From Chrysophaeum taylorii (taxonomy: Eukaryota > Sar > Pelagophyceae > Pelagomonadales > Pelagomonadaceae), in NCBI GenBank assembly GCA_029834535.1, contig JAQMWT010000343.1, positions 1-64,000 of the forward strand: a stretch of 64,000 bases of DNA, in the 5' to 3' direction. The notes beneath the pieces were generated by a model. That model did not search any database. It worked only from the letters and a program-made list of their open reading frames with translations, and had not been told where the DNA came from. The translations under genes and the position numbers were made by a program. Positions 53,961 to 64,000 of this stretch are shown piece after piece. Positions within the stretch are counted from its first letter, which is position 1. Every line of letters starts with the position of its first letter.

Positions 53961-55028
53961 AGTTTCGCTTTGCGCTGACTTCGACCCGGTCCCTCAATTC
54001 GAACTCAACCACATCAACCGTGGTGTGATGAGTACACTTGGCCGAGCCGATCTAACCTGGTTTGACCCCCCCAAAAAAAAAAAAAGGATAAGTTTGGTTT
54101 TTGTTGCCAATGTTGGATATTTCGATACATTTTCTTCGCAGAGGCAGTTGGTTGGGTTGGATTATCATCTTGACGCGACGCGTCTCCAGGTTGGTTTTGT
54201 GAGATTCATTTCTTCGCCGACGTACGCATTTTTGATTGGTTTGGTTTGATTCATTCTCTTCGCCGACGCACGCCTTTTTTCTTTTTTTTCTTTGCCTCTT
54301 CGCCTAGGCATTCCTGAACCATGGACGACCTCGAGCTGCGCGCCGGGCTGAGTTGAAAGATTTGAAGGACCTGTTCGACGAGAAGTTGCGGACCCAGGAG
54401 ATGTACGACGCTGGCGTCGAGGAAATCCTTAAGAAATACGCTGCAGAGCCTGCGCCGCCGCAAGCGCCATGGCACCAGCCCCTGCACCTGCTCCGGCACC
54501 ACCACCGGCACCAGCGACGACAACGGCGGCGGCGGCTCCGGCTGAAGCCGCTGCACCGTTTACAACGAAGCGACATGCAATACCTCTATTGGATCTTTCT
54601 TTATGGTCCCAGGGCGGGTGTTAGAGCGCCGGCCGTCGCCAGAGGAGAGCAAATCCGAACGTGTTCGTCATCTCCATGCCAAGAGTTTTGGCCACAATGA
54701 TGCGCGTTGCTCGGAAGGAACGGCGCGCGTGTCTTGCGGGCCCCAGAAGACGACGCGACCGAGAACGCTGGATGTTGGCATTGGCTGGTTTGGCGGTTGG
54801 TTTGGTTGGATTGCTCGGGTTGATTCCGTTCGCCTGGTTGGTTGGGTTTGATTTTCTAGGGTCAAAGTATTTCGCCTGGTTGGTCGAGTTTGATTTTCTG
54901 GGATCGCATTTTTTCAAGGAACGGCCACCTAGTTGGAACGGCTCGGCCAATGACGGTGAGGTCGACTGCTAAAGAGGGGGGATGTGTGTATGGTGCATAA
55001 AGATGTATAGTTGTCTTTAAATGTCGAC
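53961..55028. other. AT-richer spacer with small tandem repeats
   Basis: No complete gene. Two 2-copy tandem repeats: GATTCATT.TCTTCGCCGACG at about 54210-54270, and a ~41-bp unit GCCTGGTTGGT..GTTTGATT at about 54829-54910. A SHOCT-like coding fragment lies in the middle (54310-54600). 54958-55026 matches the TCGACTGCTAAGAG terminus family twice, abutting the LTR retrotransposon. Base composition is less GC-rich than the gene block. Confidence 0.4.
54310..54600 (+). pseudogene. Coding fragment with SHOCT-like helix and Pro/Ala linker
   Basis: Translation gives LKDLKDLFDEKLRTQEMYDA followed by GVEEILKKYA, resembling the short SHOCT oligomerisation motif (LxxLxxxGLITxEEY). In the next frame comes an Ala/Pro-rich run (APAPAPAPAPPPAPATTTAA). 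No start, stop or neighbouring exon is convincing, so this is probably a relic of a gene or of a mobile element. Confidence 0.25.
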
Positions 55029-55118
55029 TGTGGCGGCAACTCCCGCCTCCTAAGGCTTACCCCTCTTCTAGGGCCCCCCCTTATCAGGGGCACCCTACTC
55101 CGTTCCGATGAGGTCAGA

Positions 55119-55251
55119 GTTTTCTCTGACATCATCTTCCTTTTCCGTGACATGTGTCACCGAGTTTTCTCTGACATCATCTTCCTTTTCCGTGACATGT
55201 GTCACCGAGTTTTCTCTGACATCATCTTCCTTTTCCGTGACATGTGTCACC
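55119..55251 (+). repeat. Three tandem 45-bp units
   Basis: Three near-identical 45-bp units starting at 55119, 55164 and 55209 (each GTTTTCTCTGACATCATCTT then CCTTTTCCGTGACATGTGTC). CTGACATCA and GTGACATGTGTCAC contain TGACA/TGTCA palindromes. The position near the 5' end of the retrotransposon suggests an LTR or leader enhancer-like array (inference). Because 45 is a multiple of three, it also makes a spurious repetitive peptide. Confidence 0.85.
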
Positions 55252-55899
55252 CTGATTTCTGATTTCGATTATCTTTGATCATAAAGCAACAGCCGATCCT
55301 CAAGTTGAGAGGACCAGGCGCAGGAGTTGTTTGTGGTCGCGTGGCGGGAGAACGGCCATCCTCGTCCAGTGATCCCACCAAGGGCACGGACGCGATCGGC
55401 GAGCCAGGATTCGAAGGCACGCCAGGTAGCCCCTAAAATTCTCCTTACGCCACAGGTGGTGGAGGAATACGAGATTCGAGCGACTATATCGGTCGCAACG
55501 AACTAGTGCATCTTGCATTCTCTACACGGTCCGGACAAGCCGTGCGCGCCCTGATCAAGCGCGCCGACAAGGAATTCCAGAAGGACCATTGCCGTGGGAA
55601 AGTTCCCCGGCCGGATACGTTTGTCGTCGGAAGTGACGACGCGCGATTTGGTGCTAACCGACGCGCAACCCGGGTACCGCTGCCGCAGGCGAGCGGAGTG
55701 AGATCGCAACTCACGGATAAGGCATTGTTTGCCGGGCAGAGACGAGTTCTGCCGCCCACCGTACGGATAGATTTGTCGGTGGAAGACGCACGCAACGACG
55801 ATATTACGCGTGTCGTGGACGATTAGAAGTTCCGGAGCCGAAGGAGCACGAGAACGACGACGACTCAACCATTTTGGACCCGCTCTGATCTCGGCCGAT

Positions 55900-58200
55900 T
55901 AGAACGAGCCAGAGCCGATATGGAAGACGATGATGCTGCCGTCGAGCAGCTACGATATGAAGAACCGCCAAGCCGTCAGGATGAGACGAACGAGCGGAAT
56001 GATGATGATGATGATGATGACGATGAAGAAGAGCACGATACAGAAGTTGACGAGGAAGAAGAGCTAAACTACAACTACAAGCCCACGGAGAGACCGGCGG
56101 GAGGACGATCGACAGCTCCGTCAACGCGTGCAGAACCCCCGGATGCAACGAAAATGAATGAGTTCTACGAAGCTCACTTGCGGGCATTACGCGAAGAGAA
56201 CGAACGCGCGCAAGAACGACTTTTAAAACTCTTAGGGGAAGAGAACGAACGAAAAGAACGGCTACACCGGAAGGAGATAAAAATAATGCGAGAGCAACTG
56301 CGTATGGCCAATGCTCGAGCAGACGCCCTCCAAGATCAAGCAAGCGCGTTGACACGGGAAATAGATGAATTGCGTATGCCGAATCGCCCGAGGCGAGCGA
56401 ACGGTCTCGAGGAGAATTCCGAACTTCGAAGGTACCGCCGCCCACGCGAACGCGAGCGAAAGTCAGGAAGCCGCGCGACGACGACGACGAGTCGTCCGAG
56501 ATGACCGAAACGTCGTTAAACTACGATCAAGAGCAATCCAAGTCGAAGGAGCTCACCCAAACCAAAATCCCCACAGAATCGAAGAATTTGACCGAAACGT
56601 CGTTAAACTACGGGTCGAAGCCGTCTACCGCTTCTAACCCGGTGTCACCGTTGGTGGCACGATATGATTTGTCGTCAGCTGACACAACCCTCGGTCTTGA
56701 CGACGCGCCGGAGTTATGTGTGAATCCGATTTACGAGCCCCGTGCAGCCGATGACGCCCAAAGTAAAGGACCCGCCGCTGCTACGCTCGATGCTATGAGT
56801 TTACCTCCGAACATTCAAGTGGATGGCACGTCGCCTCCACGATCGATCGACGATGCGTCGCAGAGGATTATCTCGAATGATAAGCGCGCACCTGAGTACA
56901 CACCATCGAACGTCACGTGCCCTTTGGTGGCCAGTTTTTGACAGATATGACGTCGGGGACGACGCCTTCTTCTTTGCAGCCCCCCGACGAACCGACTGCA
57001 GACGTTTTTGCAGATTTTTTCCCTTTGACGATGGCAGACAATTCGTGTGCCGACATTTTTAGTGACGAGGCGATTGCCGATATTCGAAGCGATGGAGTGG
57101 ATGAGAGGCCGAGTGAAACGGCCGAGAAAATGAATACGAAAGCGGAAGAGATGAAGAATCTTATAACGCATGAACTGCCTTTGGAGCTCAGTGAAAGCCC
57201 TGGCGTATTACTCACGAACGAAGAGTTCAAAGATTTTCAGCCTGCATATGATGATGGCTACGTGATAAAGAAAGATCCCGAACATACTATGAGGGATGAG
57301 TATAGCTGCCGCCCGGAACCGAATTTGGATGGGACGATCAGCATGGATAATAGGAAGATGAGCGTACCGACGATAAGGATACGAGCTCAATGTTTCCTGA
57401 AGAAGAAAGCGCCAGAGCGGAAAGAAGTACAATTCCGACCCCGAGGCACGGAGTTATTGGCCAACCGAGATTTAATTTACGTTTGGTCGGAGGTTTGGCA
57501 AAAAGACGACGAAGGCGTCGATGTTTGGATAGACGAGACGATTGAGCCAGTTCGGATAGACTTGGGAGCACCAGTCGCCTACAGGGACGATCCAGAGGTA
57601 CTAGGACCTGCCGAACTGACGCCAGAGAGAGACAAAGATAACAAGAGCCCCAGTCGAAGTTCGCGCCGGCACAGACGACGCCGATCGCGCGACGACGAAT
57701 ACGACGGAGGCCGACACCAATATAATTCGAGTTTTTCGAGCGCAACGCTCGCATTTACGACCCCTTGCGGTCAACAGTTACCATTAGGAGTGACGGTGTA
57801 CCCGAACACGGACACCCGCACCGACGACGCAGCCGACGCCCTTGCCGCGGCCGCATTCGAAGATCTTGCTCGCCCACCGATGGACGAGCCACCCAACGAC
57901 GTGCTGACCAATCGTCGGTCTTTGGCACAGATTTATGAGCAGATGTCGAGCGATGAGCTCGAAGATTCGAGCGAGGAACTTGAAGCTCGATACTGGGAAG
58001 GCGATTCAGATTCGGAAGATGAAGAAGCTACACTCTGTGAACCAGTGTCTGCGTTAACGTTATTTGACGAGTCGTCCATGGACGACCCACCGTTTATTTT
58101 TGATGAGGAAGCCCTCGATGCCATCGGCTTATCTTTGGACCCTCCAGAGACGACCGCTGGCGACCGAACTGGCTGTGAGCCAGACATGAATTTCTGCAGT
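55900..58200 (+). mobile_element. Gag-like region of the LTR retrotransposon
   Basis: Part of the fossil element. It begins with an acidic segment and a strong coiled coil (MNEFYEAHLRALREENERAQ and on to about 56400), as expected of a particle-forming protein, followed by Pro/Ser-rich disordered stretches. The segment LTSGTTPS with nearby FLKKKAPE near 56945-57420 recurs in altered form just downstream (LTSGTTPS near 58273, FLLKKPPE near 58470), so part of the region is internally duplicated. No CCHC knuckle was seen. Confidence 0.55.
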
Positions 58201-61200
58201 GATATCGTGCGCGCATTCGACTGACGAGACGATGACCAGCGCGAGTATTGCAGACGACGATTTTACGACAGAGTTGACGTCGGGGACGACGCCATCTTTT
58301 CCTGCGGACCCCCCCGAAACGGTTTCGATTACTACGGATCGAGACACGGATACGCCGCCGGAAGAAAAGGATAGATTTATGAAGAAGATTAGCAGCGTTC
58401 TCGAGTGTGACGAAGACGAGCAGACGTGGAACCTGCAGGATTGGTGGACGAAAGCTCAGAATTTCTTGCTGAAGAAGCCACCAGAACAACCGCGCAGCTG
58501 CAGACTCAAAGCCGCAGCTGACACGGAACCGATCGCCGATGCTGATGAGGATCAGCAGGCGACGAATGAATTTACAGATGCATTCTGGAAAGACGAAATG
58601 AATGATTTATGGAAGGGGTCCTTTGCTTCTGTGAACTACGAAGACCAGGATCCCCTAACAGCACGGATTCCCTCTGAGATTGTCTTGGAGGAAGAGCGAA
58701 AGCCGCCAGATAAAGAGGCTGCCGCGACCGTTATGGCGAAGACACCAACAACAGATAATCCTAGAGCTCAAGCCGCGGTATCGATGCCCAACCCCGGAGA
58801 CGAGCGATTCAGAGCCCGATGTGCTCACACTTCGTTGACGCCGCGAGATGGCAAGACGATCGAAGATGATTTGATTACCCTCAGTTGTTTAGATACGGGT
58901 TCTCTAACGTTTATGGCCTGTCACATCTACAAGAATCGTGACGGTCCGAAATTCTCGACGACCATCGGTGTCGATGGAATGGCAGATGTTTCTTATATTT
59001 GCCGAGAAATGGTCAAAAAGTTGACCAAAGATCAGTTGATTTTCGATGAAGGCGAACTTCCGATTAAGCGCAAGCTGTACGGATCAGGGTTGAATACGAC
59101 GACGATCCATCGTTGGATCGCCCTTCGGGTCGCTTTCGCCGATGACTTTGCCGCTCCCATTGTTGCTATTGTAGCAGATACGAATTATCTGTTCCTGTTG
59201 GGAGGGCGCGATATACGAGTTTTAGGAGCCATCGTGGATTTTCCCCATGATCGGATCTGTTTTTGTCGAACCCAAGTCGTCTACGGGCGCAAGAAGATTA
59301 AAGTTAAGGATGAACGAGTCGATGCACCAATCGTGACCTTTCGGTCGATTTACGATCGAAATCCGATAACCGTACCGATTTACAATCATCAACACGATGC
59401 CTTTCGGCAGAGTCTCGACCTGGTCAAGACTCGAGTTTATGCTCGTTTGAGCACGATTAAAGATCTCCGAAGCCCGCCGCCGGAACGTAAGGTAGCCATG
59501 GCTACGCGGGGACATGCTACGACCAAATTCTCCCCAGCTCCGGGAGAAGACGCGCGAGAAGTAATCGCTTATGCCGCGCGCACGCTTCAAATCGAGCCCG
59601 GTCGAACGTACAATCTACCGGTTATTTTGTCGAAGCCTATGGAAAAAGGACAGGTTTTCGTCGCTACGTTTGCTGAGAACGAGCAGTTGGGAGTTGTCGA
59701 AGGAATGTGTTCTTCTTGCGAAGAGCGCGACCGGTCCGCTGCTCGGGTGGCAGTTACTGCCACGGAAGAAGTGCCGACGATCGTCACTCAAGGCGAAGCC
59801 CTTGCGATTGGTGATATCGTTAGGTACGAAGATGAGTTGAACGTCTCTACGATCAACGAACTTACGAAAGAATGTGAAGAAGGATACGACAAGGGGAACC
59901 TTTCTTTCACCGTTTCTGTCGCTAGTCATTTGACGCGATGCGACGAATCTCCCCCGCCGATGCTGCTGAGCACGGTGCAGAAGGACGCTATGACCGCTAT
60001 GACGGACAAGTCCACCCTCAAACGACCTGAAGGCAGCGACGATTTCGCTCGAAGGTCAGAAAAAGATGAAAAGAAATGCCGCGAGATCACCGAAGCGGAG
60101 ATCCGCCGCCGATATGAAAAGGTTCAATGGCTTCCAATCACTTATCGCAAGGTGGTGATGCTGTTCAGTGGAGCCGGAGGCAGTACTTTAGGTCTCCAAC
60201 GAGCCAACGAAACGTGTGGGACGTCGTTTCGAGTCGTGCTAGCACTCGATGCGTCGGACACCGCCAACCAGATCCACCACAAGAACTTTCCGAATATTCC
60301 TGTGGTGCAGCACACATTGTGTGGTCGCTATGTTACAACCTTACGGTTGATCGAATCTTATTTACCCTACGCGGAATGGTCGTCGTCGATGTGTGTCGCG
60401 TCGCCACCCTGCGTACACTCCGCTCTGTGCAACTTGACTTCCAGAGATGTTGGGAAGGGAGTCACCGCTACCCACTGGACGATGAAATTATGCAAGATGG
60501 CTGGTTTCTTCATGTGGCTGATAGAGCAGGAGGCTTCGATTATTTCTTACGTTGCACGTTTGCACCCGTACGTATACGTCGTCAATTTTTACGACATAAC
60601 TCCTAGTTTGATGAGCTGTCGCGTGCGATTGTTGGTTTCCAGCCATCCGCTCCATTTGCGCGCAGTTCCAAAGACTTGCAAGAATATGCAGCAAAAGTTC
60701 GCCGCAGCACTTGGCTACGCCGACGAACGACATTTACTTCAGATGAACAATTTAGGATCATCACGAGCCGCGACAGACGCAGCTTATACTGTTACGCGTG
60801 TCCCGCTTCGCGTAGGACCGCACCGTTCCGATTACAGATCTCTGAATCTGGAAATGACTTCGGAGTTGCTGACGATGCCCCCTGGTTTTGATTGGGCCGG
60901 CTTCTCCAGGACGACCTCGTTGAAACACTTGGCGTCCGTCGTGCCACCTGACACGATAGCCTTATTAATGCTCGATCTGCACAACTCTGTGACCAAGGAA
61001 TTTCACCTGAGCGGCGAAGCTTTGCCGTCAGCGTTGAGTCCTGCAGACCGACCGTTTGATTATTATTTACAAATTGATGAAACCACCCTTCGTCACGTAC
61101 AAGTTCCGCTGTTAAACACGCGCACACGTGTCATAAGATGGGTGTCGACTGATGATCTTCAAGATCGCACCAAATGGAAACCTCCAGAGGTACCGTTGAT

Positions 61201-61480
61201 TCCGCCTGCAACAGATGAGGGGACGTCTCATGCTTCTTCTGCTGCCCCCCGACAACCAAATTTAGACGTTCCGCCAGATCCTGAGCGAGATCGGGAACCG
61301 AAGATTAAGAGCGAGCCGAGTGTTCGTGTCAAAGGCGAGAGGATCAACAAAAGCCACCCGGAAGTGAAACTAAAATACGAGAAGAAGTTCGATGTGCCAT
61401 GGAAAGATGCGCCGCGCGATGCCGAGGGTGCACCACTGCCGCAGACTCCTGAGCATGTCAAGGACAACGAAGATGAAAGT
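58200..61480 (+). mobile_element. Protease and cytosine-C5 DNA methyltransferase region of the LTR retrotransposon
   Basis: Part of the fossil element; the longest open stretch in it. A retropepsin-like segment lies at about 58880-59270 (LSCLDTGSLTF, with a later LFLLGGRDI). A cytosine-C5 methyltransferase domain lies at about 60140-60960: AdoMet-binding motif I VVMLFSGAGGSTLGLQRA and motif IV SMCVASPPCVHSALCN, with the catalytic Cys of the PPC motif, plus further segments spaced as in DNA_methylase (PF00145). Retrotransposons with captured cytosine methyltransferases have been reported in the dinoflagellate Symbiodinium and the charophyte Klebsormidium; this would be another case. Activity cannot be judged. 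Confidence 0.8.
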
Positions 61481-61499
61481 TAAATTCCTACGAAGGAAG

Positions 61500-64000
61500 A
61501 AGTTGACAAGGTTGTGCAGGAGCTGGGAATTCCTGACAATCCGCACTTAGATGACGAGGCGAAACTGATGCTCCGTCACTGTGTGCAATATTCTTGGGCC
61601 TTTTTCGACCCGATTATGAGACCTGTGGACTCGCCTCCTGTGTCTCTACGATTCAAAGACGCGAATCCGCGACCGATAAAGATGACGCCCTACCGATTGA
61701 CGCCTGCGAAGCTCGATTGTCTCCGCAAGCAGATCAGCGAGTGGTGCCGGATGGGAGTCATTCGTCCGGCCAACTCACCTTGGGGCTTTCCTGTGTTGAT
61801 GCTTCCGAAGAAAGGAGCTGAGATTGGAACGTCCGTGCTGCAGTTGACTTACGTCAGCTCAACGATCAATTGGCCAATGACAGTTGGCCAAACATTCGAC
61901 AAGATGATGCTTTAGCCTTTCTCGCGATGAGACGATGGCGGACATGCATTGATATTAGATGGGGATACCACAACCTTCGTCTGGATCCGGCAGCGCAGGA
62001 CGCTGTCACGATGGTTAGCCCACTTGGCGCTCACAGTTTCTTGCGATTACCTCTAGGTGTGAAGACGGCCGGAGCTCTTTTCAAGCAAATGGCGAGCGAC
62101 CTTTCGAAATGGATGTATCAAGACTTGGTTGCGTTTGTTGACGATATTATGATGGGATCCGACGATCTTCATCGACATTTACAAGTTTTGATCGAAGTGA
62201 TGTGTCATTTGGCACAGAGAGGGTACAGCGGTCGAACCGCGAAGTTCCACCTCAATGATGATATAGAATTTCTGGGACACATCTCGACCCCAGAAGGCTT
62301 GAAGCCGAATCCGAAGACGCTGGAAGCACTGCAGAAGATGCCGATTCCAGGTACTTTACCGAATACTTCCCGAAGACCCAGATACGCTCTTTCATCGGCA
62401 TGAGTAATTACTGCCGGCGATATGTGAAGGGCTACTCGAAGATTGTAACCGTTGAGACGATTATGCCTCGAAGGTGTAAAGTTCGAGTGGACGCCCGAGT
62501 GTCAGAAAGCTTGGGATACGATTGAAGCTTTGGTTGATTCCCGTGGAGTCTACCACGCCGATTATGATCTGCCTTTTCAGATCCGATCCGATGCTTCCAA
62601 GGATGGACTTGGAGCATATCTCTTCCAGATTGTCGAAGTCAAGGACGATGCCGGAAGAGTGACTCGAGAAGAACGAGTAATTGAATACTGGAGCCGAGCT
62701 GTGCCGAAGGAGATGCGGAATTATGAGCCCCGTCGGCTAGAGCTGCTGGCATATACTTTCTCTAGAGCACTTTCGAGCCTACATCGAAGGGCACCGTACT
62801 GTTTTGGAGACCGATCACCGAAATTTGACGTTTTTACGTAAGGCGACGCACTCGTCTGGGCAGCTTGCTCGTTGGGCGATGCGCCTCGCCAATTTTGACC
62901 CTGAACTTGGTTACAAGCCGGGAAAGTCACCGGGAATGAGTATCCCTGACTGTCTCTCCCGCAACCCGATAGATCATGTCATCGAGACTGACGAGTTTGG
63001 AGAACCTTTGAACCACGCGTATTTAGTGTTCCAAGAGCTTCCCCGACCTGTTGATGACCGAGGAGTTCCCGTCTCCGGCTGCCACTTCATAATGTCGTTT
63101 ATTACGACCGAACTGCCGGAAGACGAGGAAGAAGATCCTGAAAAGGATCCGATGAAATTGGCTACGTCTCACGCTACGAGACAACGTCGGAAGAACCGTG
63201 CGCGATGAGCCACAGATCTTCAAGGACGCAGCCGCTTACAAAGATTATATCGATAAGATACCCGATAATATGACGCTCGCTGAGATCGCACGTGAGCAAG
63301 AATCTGATGCTACGTGCGAGGATATTCGCTACCGAATGGCCCAAGGTCAGACGCCGCGACGTTCCCGAGCGAACGAACGATTCGAAGTCGTTAAAGATGT
63401 TCTTTACCGCATTTCTGCTGATTTGCACCCGATGATTGTTGCACCTGCTACGTTGCGCAAGCGCATTATTCGACTCTATCATGACACTCCGGTTAACGGT
63501 GGTCATATGGGACGTCACAGTACCGTCCAGGCTATCCAAGAACGATTTTGGTGGCCTCACATGTCGAACGAAGTTGGAGTCTTCATTGCTGAATGTTTAG
63601 TTTGCCAGAAAGCTCGTACGCCTGAGCCGAAACGAGCTGGACTTGCAGCAGCCCGTCTACGATGGTGATGGTGCTGTTCTTTGCATGGATTTATTTGGAC
63701 CCTTGCCCAGCGCTGGTCCCGAGACGTCTTCTAGTATTTTTGATCCGTTCTCGCATTTCTTGATTCTGGATGTTTTGAACGATAAGACTGCTGAGTCTGT
63801 CCTCGAGTCTTTTGTCATTAACATTCTCCTCAAGGGCTACTTGCCCCAGATGATTCGTACCGACAACGGTAAAGAGTTCGTGAACAAGTTGATGCGCGAG
63901 TTTTGCCATCTCTAACACACGATACCAAACTACGATTCCTTATCATGCCCAGTCGAACCCGGCTGAGCGTGTCAACCGATTTATCAAGGCCTTCCTCCGT
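61500..64000 (+). mobile_element. Pol region: reverse transcriptase, RNase H, integrase (continues past window)
   Basis: Part of the fossil element. Reverse transcriptase in the first ~900 bases (YRLTPAKLDCLRKQISEWC; SPWGFPVLMLPKKG; HSFLRLPLGVKTAGALFKQM; LVAFVDDIMMG with the catalytic DD). RNase H of the Ty3 type follows (FQIRSDASKDGLGAYLFQ). Then the integrase zinc-binding H2C2 motif (LYHDTPVNGGHMGRHS; ECLVCQKAR) and the start of the integrase catalytic core (AVLCMDLFGPLP; MIRTDNGKEFVN). The region is broken in several places. The rest of the integrase and the 3' LTR lie beyond the window. Confidence 0.85.

Follow-up and report, generated by a model that had tools for sequence, protein, structure and literature searches.

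Methyltransferase-bearing retrotransposons and the element in the window

Retrotransposons that carry a cytosine methyltransferase (MTase) have been described from Symbiodinium (LINE and DIRS elements) and Klebsormidium (Gypsy) (PMC5890265). When expressed in yeast, the SymbioDIRS MTases showed de novo methylation of CG, and methylation of complementary DNA (cDNA) was proposed for these elements (PMC5890265). Citing that study, a 2025 survey mentions DNMT3 members located inside Copia-type LTR and DIRS structures (PMC12344493), and the passages covered of a survey of microeukaryote DNMTs contain no such element (PMC9998398). A literature search by title and abstract, with preprints and most subscription papers outside its reach, yielded no other retrotransposon-borne cytosine MTase beyond PMC5890265. 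Here, we analyzed a stretch of 64,000 nucleotides (the window; positions 1 to 64,000 of contig JAQMWT010000343.1, C343 below, from the Chrysophaeum taylorii assembly GCA_029834535.1), which contains a Ty3-type long terminal repeat (LTR) retrotransposon with a divergent C5-MTase-type domain. The element spans C343:55029-65374 (10.3 kb) and extends 1.4 kb beyond the window. The best-known role of cytosine methylation is in the defence of hosts against transposons, and it is hard to explain why an element should maintain its own MTase under strong selection. A first-pass annotation made from the sequence alone had called this locus an LTR retrotransposon carrying a C5-MTase, and the LTRs, the Ty3-type Pol and a PF00145-type domain within the element bear it out.

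KnitGypsy-Dnmt3 of Klebsormidium nitens is likewise of the LTR/Gypsy type and encodes a cytosine MTase within its Pol open reading frame (ORF); its copies are intronless, and the MTase is under purifying selection and retains the key residues (PMC5890265). Its own features are a DNMT3-related MTase and a DIRS-like repeat arrangement (PMC5890265). In contrast, plain direct LTRs flank the window element and a sister copy on contig C5, the DIRS-like arrangement being absent from both, and the MTase lies between a protease-like region and the reverse transcriptase (RT) and is found at loci numbering in the hundreds. The motifs PPC(V/I) and EQE also appear to set it apart from DNMT3. SymbioDIRS-Dnmt3 and SymbioLINE-Dnmt resemble the present case in that very many MTase retroelements of more than one class, under purifying selection, occupy one algal genome; they are tyrosine-recombinase DIRS elements and LINEs (PMC5890265), whereas those found here are a Ty3 type with H2C2 and rve domains and a Ty1/copia type. 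A Phalaenopsis Gypsy element with an AlkB RNA demethylase is also a Ty3/Gypsy lineage with a captured enzyme for a nucleic-acid mark, but it holds the demethylase in an additional ORF and not, as here, a cytosine MTase inside Pol (PMC9289625). The first-pass annotation had taken such capture to be recurrent, and the element fits the pattern set out in PMC5890265. What is new is that Ty3 and copia elements occur together in one genome, along with the group to which the host belongs and, apparently, the type of enzyme; a third host type joins the two host lineages named above, with two element superfamilies at once.

The MTase domain comprises 301 amino acids (60086..60988, forward strand, like all features below) and forms residues 630-930 of an open frame of 1,094 amino acids (58199-61483) that also holds Gag-like and protease-like parts. 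PF00145, PHROGs and selection all support it. Against the curated PF00145 cut-off of 22 bits, the window frame fell just short (19.8 bits, E=5.9e-4), but relatives passed: 26.8 bits for copy L051 of subfamily A2 and 38.5 bits (E=1.2e-9) for copy L069 of subfamily A3, whose best stretch covers profile positions 257-321 (motifs IX-X). PF00145, proposed as a check at first pass, thus scores above the cut-off in related copies and just below it in the window copy. In alignment A5, PF00145 matched at E<=0.01 in all 15 MTase copies (best 9.2e-10), and PHROGs gave phrog_116 (E=9.9e-7) and phrog_363 (E=1.1e-6) for the window MTase, both annotated as DNA methyltransferase. A chance motif match was ruled out by the 15 PF00145 matches in relatives together with purifying selection. 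As the window subfamily lies below the PF00145 cut-off, similar elements may be missed by PF00145 surveys, a warning that such surveys on their own can overlook divergent MTases. As to the origin of the MTases, no relative reached E<=1e-3 within the candidates that were scored from a set of 5.8 billion proteins; one query was a cut piece, blind to full-length polyproteins, and for another the scoring covered the 7,999 candidates with most words in common. Viral contigs, searched with two peptide patterns for each query, likewise yielded no relative.

As the first-pass annotation stated, the frame contains motif I (FSGAGG, 60164-60181; GAGG core kept with few exceptions) and motif IV (SPPC, 60401-60412), which carries the presumed catalytic cysteine. 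These are followed by a motif VI-like LIEQE at the ENV position (60518..60532), a motif VIII-like SCRVR at the QxRxR position (60614..60628) and a motif IX/X-like segment, RSLNLEM ... HLASVVPP (60836..60949), whose A3 counterpart is the one that matches PF00145 257-321. Across 37 full-length A1/A2 copies, one of which has an internal stop, no variation was seen at Cys109, Glu147 (the first Glu of LIEQE), Arg179, Arg181, Asp55 of motif II and the GG of motif I, and single exceptions occurred at F27, A30, P108 and E149. The same Cys, Glu, Arg and Asp residues were constant in five A1-A4 sequences that are 41-84% identical to the window, the motif IV cysteine being invariant in alignments of 13 rows and of 5 rows (A1-A4) and the EQE and both arginines across A1-A4. 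Motifs I, IV, VI, VIII, IX and X persist down to 41% identity. The presumed catalytic Cys, Glu and Arg are all present in motif order, while ENV has lost its N and PCQ its Q. With PF00145 enzymes (bacterial Dcm-like, phage and DNMT1-6 classes), the domain has in common the order I-II-IV-VI-VIII-IX-X, the PC of motif IV and a QxRxR-like pair; it differs in being very divergent. By these marks, it is a compact, divergent C5-MTase-type domain in the Pol of a Ty3-type LTR element.

Selection was measured by Nei-Gojobori counts of nonsynonymous (dN) and synonymous (dS) divergence between A1 and A2, the copies for each segment being drawn from 38 loci. The MTase showed dN 0.110, dS ~2.25 and a median dN/dS (omega) of 0.050 (30 x 8 copies). 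Omega was 0.029 in part of the RT (116 residues, 28 x 5), 0.091 in the protease-like region (23 x 4), and 0.159 and 0.157 in the linkers between protease-like region and MTase (24 x 7) and between MTase and RT (17 x 2). Because dS approaches saturation, with no defined value for 7 of 240 MTase, 38 of 92 protease-like and 9 of 140 RT pairs, omega is only rough, and the ranking of the segments is what counts. Within A1, a set picked by MTase similarity, which biases within-set values and between-set ones less, omega was 0.161 for the MTase, 0.225 for the RT, 0.255 for the protease-like region and 0.42 and 0.56 for the linkers. Comparison of the A3 copy L069 with six sister copies (one of which, L075, starts out of frame) gave dN 0.09-0.15 and dS 1.3-1.8. 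The MTase is under strong purifying selection, constrained like the neighbouring enzymes. Neither the strength of this selection nor the second, Ty1/copia MTase-bearing family described below was foreseen at first pass.

Copies, subfamilies and a second family

The genome comprises 70.8 Mb in 697 contigs. Our searches scored the best candidates only, so locus counts are lower bounds; stops or frame breaks are frequent among the copies listed. A1 and A2 together account for at least 170 MTase loci, 79-100% identical to the query used (at least 131 with the window query and 39 more with an A2 query). The A3 MTase (C225, L069) is 41% identical to that of the window and occupies at least 124 loci, obtained from 140 listed matches by joining pieces within 1.5 kb. 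The A4 MTase (C95, L079) is 46% identical to the window and occupies at least 23 loci at >=76% identity. With at least 317 loci for A1-A4, spread in their hundreds over many contigs, contamination or a one-off insertion was ruled out. Contig pairs C25/C521, C10/C297 and C6/C268 gave matches at nearly the same coordinates; these are probably uncollapsed haplotypes, and the copy counts may be slightly inflated.

In 36 of 39 loci, the protease-like region, MTase and RT followed one another in this order on the same strand; in the other three, one part was undetectable in the flanks read. With the RT as anchor, a listed MTase lay at the expected distance in 46 of 70 Ty3-type RT rows picked by eye; among the remaining 24, five were resolved, four by a deletion junction (see below) and one by a frame-broken MTase. 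The A4 copy L079 (C95:9373-11672) has an RT 82% identical to the window lineage (106 residues seen) and an MTase at 46%, so that A4 would be either a mosaic whose upstream half was exchanged or a lineage in which that half evolved much faster.

The sister copy on C5 (520043-530330) has LTRs identical at 336 of 336 positions and a single frame of 3,067 codons from stop to stop. Its order is Gag-like coiled-coil and protease-like region (both by eye), MTase, RVT_1, RNase H, H2C2 and rve. Pfam placed RVT_1, RT_RNaseH, Integrase_H2C2 and rve in this order in its protein P0002, which is the Ty3/Gypsy order of Pol, and both the window and the C5 copies have two LTRs with inverted TG..CA ends.

Scanning the genome with PF00145 yielded 57 matches. 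The two best, C634:8824-9801 (L001, E=4e-19) and C621:16962-17498 (L002, E=8e-18), are probably ordinary host genes, the first Dnmt2-like and the second Dnmt5-like. The six other loci opened (L003-L008) all belong to one further element family, B, as do L052-L057. A B copy on C96 (60459-70083, in L043, C96:59610-69609) has LTRs of ~208 bp that are 89% identical and a 5-bp target-site duplication, CTCAC. Its protein P0003 reads protease-like LIDGGAS (by eye), MTase (PF00145, 1.1e-7), rve (a weak match at 0.0061, below the cut-off) and RVT_2 (1.6e-38), followed by a copia-type RNase H seen by eye in a piece with no Pfam match. This is the Ty1/copia order of protease, integrase, RT and RNase H, with the MTase between the protease-like region and the integrase. 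The B MTase shows TLPCQ, IVENV and a IX/X-like ALANAVP, with an insert of ~400 residues between motifs VIII and IX (by eye). It occupies at least 142 loci (joined from the best 150 of 152 matches), and PF00145 matched five of seven B rows. Median omega of its core against the C96 copy was 0.117 over the 14 of 17 comparisons in which dS exceeded 0.1, a value inflated by two rows partly out of frame. A profile-profile comparison of the A and B MTases found no similarity (probability 0.3%); both profiles are shallow, and the result fits two captures, without proving them.

Possible roles of the methyltransferase

An MTase that lies next to the RT, is constrained and keeps its chemistry residues is most simply explained as a packaged enzyme whose target is the nucleic acid of the element itself. 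Our preferred explanation, held with moderate confidence, is that a captured MTase has been kept as a working domain acting on that nucleic acid, most likely new cDNA. A Ty3 lineage would have taken a C5-MTase into Pol between the protease-like region and the RT, probably before A1-A4 split. The MTase would be released from Gag-Pol along with RT and integrase, would stay packaged with the reverse-transcription complex, and would methylate cytosines of the element's nucleic acid, most likely new cDNA before or at integration. A methylated incoming copy might then look like host DNA, or be quieted early. As the first-pass annotation proposed, the MTase may serve to mark or silence the copies of the element, or to let them escape silencing. 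The parts of this explanation differ in strength. That the catalytic domain is maintained for use in the element's cycle appears highly probable. A DNA rather than an RNA substrate is probable and is favoured because the significant matches are to DNA-MTase profiles (PF00145 in A3, PHROGs). Self-methylation of cDNA specifically falls a little short of an even chance. A genome as small as this, with hundreds of copies of graded age, four Ty3 MTase subfamilies and natural deletions, makes the use of the MTase to the element testable.

That a copia-type family in this genome carries a different MTase suggests that, in this host, an element gains from having such a domain. A broader version of the explanation, possible but speculative, would have two convergent captures, in Ty3 and in Ty1/copia elements and both just after the protease, with the elements supplying a self-mark and deletion derivatives surviving through being marked in trans; new cDNA in this host would then have to bear methylated cytosines in order to pass as self. 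Neither the A nor the B MTase appears to have the DNMT3 hallmarks of the known LTR and DIRS cases.

Several results weigh against the preferred explanation. The domain had no significant match to any solved C5-MTase structure, AlphaFold2 models were of too low confidence to show a class I MTase fold (mean predicted local distance difference test scores 30.3 and 35.7), with no Foldseek match at E<=0.001, and the A4 member L079 by itself had no Pfam match. There was no CpG scar: CpG observed/expected was 1.32 in the window element and 1.34 in the host DNA at 1-53000, and C/T differences among 28 A1 loci were 4.54% in CpG and 4.61% outside it. This speaks against long-term heavy CpG methylation, not against transient, other-context or well-repaired methylation. 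Copia elements are common here and do well without a B-type MTase; only one (C58) of the best 150 RVT_2 matches lay 2.5-6 kb downstream of a listed B MTase, although the list says nothing about the number of B elements, because the RT of the B copy, at 133 bits, lies below its floor of 142.5. The KnitGypsy and SymbioLINE MTases were without activity in yeast, which the authors call inconclusive (PMC5890265). Lastly, some Ty3 copies have lost the domain and, once made, appear to manage without it in cis.

This loss came to light at four RT loci that at first had no listed MTase. C9 proved to hold a frame-broken A1 MTase and C95 an A4 MTase; C248 and C335 belong to A3 and have a gap of ~370 residues that removes the MTase, with 97-99% identity to MTase-bearing A3 on both sides of it, and in C248 the stretch read stays open across the junction. 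A search that allowed two mismatches found the junction, exact, at four places (C209:18565, C248:16362, C335:27349 and C394:33373), and a reversed control pattern gave zero matches. The outcome named at first pass as a refutation, that related copies elsewhere lack the domain, is contradicted by the hundreds of loci that hold it, some of them broken, although these four lack it. The four accord with the alternative that the MTase is a trait of the lineage, supplied in trans to shorter derivatives by full copies, or beneficial only in the long term. The recurrence of one exact junction, the high identity of C248 and C335 to MTase-bearing A3 on both sides and the open frame of C248 all argue for it; however, segmental duplication could also yield four loci, and C209 and C394 are known by the junction and adjoining Ty3-type RT rows only. 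We regard this alternative as rather unlikely, if the best placed of those considered.

Slightly less likely still is an RNA substrate. A Dnmt2-like enzyme would methylate the primer tRNA or the genomic RNA, never DNA, and so aid packaging, priming or evasion of RNA surveillance. The missing CpG scar is in keeping with this, and the best structure matches, weak and non-significant, include the tRNA MTase DNMT2. Yet 8yf3 and 3g7u, chains that bear the name cytosine-specific methyltransferase, equal or exceed it in rank, the similarity to DNMT2 is limited to motifs I-II, and phage DNA-methyltransferase profiles are significant while no DNMT2 chain is. There is precedent on the RNA side: an RNA role was proposed for SymbioLINE (PMC5890265), and an orchid Gypsy element carries an RNA demethylase (PMC9289625).

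A non-catalytic module that binds S-adenosylmethionine (SAM) or nucleic acid and serves a structural role in the polyprotein would account for the departures at motif VI (EQE, not ENV) and motif IV (PPC(V/I), not PCQ); it is improbable, as the Cys, the Glu, two Arg, and the Gly and acidic residue of the SAM site are among the unchanging positions. That host or bacterial MTase sequence was swept along as an unused passenger, a notion to which the one junction common to four MTase-less loci lends something, is already contradicted by an omega of 0.05 over nearly saturated dS and by motifs kept at hundreds of loci in subfamilies down to 41% identity.

Anatomy of the window copy, base composition and host

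The 5' LTR of the window copy (55029..55454) has TGTGGCG...CGCCACA ends and was located by blastn against its own contig and the C5 sister copy, its termini being read from the sequence. The 3' LTR, located by blastn against the same contig, lies outside the window (C343:65007-65374). A 45-bp unit is repeated three times in tandem within the 5' LTR (55117-55260); the shorter LTRs, namely those of the C5 copy and the 3' LTR of the window element, have fewer such units. A putative primer-binding site starting with TGG adjoins the 5' LTR (55457..55473). The Gag-like N-terminal region (55920..58783), delimited by tblastn with the C5 polyprotein, is spread over three frames here and has a coiled-coil-like stretch by eye; it matched no family above the Pfam cut-off.

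The protease-like region (58805..59278) contains LLGGRDIRVLG and is 97% identical in amino acids to the C5 copy. The first-pass annotation had placed a retropepsin-like protease in the frame of the MTase. Position and flanking pattern fit a protease, and it is on these that the assignment as protease-like relies; retropepsins are expected to show D[ST]GA, but the window copy and the A3 copy L069:174-560 both have DGMA, in two subfamilies that are 35% identical there, and Pfam gave no protease match for the region.

The RVT profile search suggested at first pass placed the Ty3-type RT just downstream of the open frame (61484..62301; RVT_1, 3.5e-12). RNase H follows (62479..62908; PF17917, 3.7e-25 in the sister copy), both enzymes being in two frames in the window copy. 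The integrase, with its H2C2 zinc domain and the start of the catalytic core (63432..64000; PF17921, 3e-19; rve 4e-11 in the sister copy), continues past the window. The window copy is decayed: a stop lies at 61481-61483, and several frame changes break RT, RNase H and integrase. Its MTase is unbroken and 98% identical to that of C5.

Neither of the two A1 insertions inspected, that of the window and that on C5, showed a target-site duplication. The 3' flank of the window element and the 5' flank of its C5 sister share 20 bases, the one being the reverse complement of the other (regions compared: window 54990-55029, L040 375-420 and L041 8981-9000); from these bases, the two copies may both sit inside one other repeat, in opposite orientations.

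In raw composition, the CpG ratio was ~1.02-1.10 in B and 1.16-1.20 in A2, beside the host value given above, with TpG/CpA above the host; the lowered ratios of B and A2 are only a lead. Rates by trinucleotide context in A1 ranged from 0.017 to 0.084 and include codon constraint, hence we make no claim from them.

The first-pass annotation had judged the host to be unlike Symbiodinium and Klebsormidium, and antenna and psaA matches agree in pointing to a red-lineage alga. The genome gave 84 matches to the chlorophyll-binding family; for one, the closest solved antenna chains were long LHCI chains (9vfj), followed by chains of haptophyte photosystem I antenna. psaA and psaB lie side by side on a 103.6-kb contig, with psaA closest to structure 9m4f and then to cryptophyte and diatom chains, ahead of green and cyanobacterial ones. 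Genes in the window have long uninterrupted frames. Antenna, psaA and gene frames together point to a red-lineage alga, probably one with chlorophyll c, and neither to a charophyte nor to a minicircle-bearing dinoflagellate. A single contig, C696, carries eight reverse-transcriptase matches and may represent an organelle genome with many group II introns.

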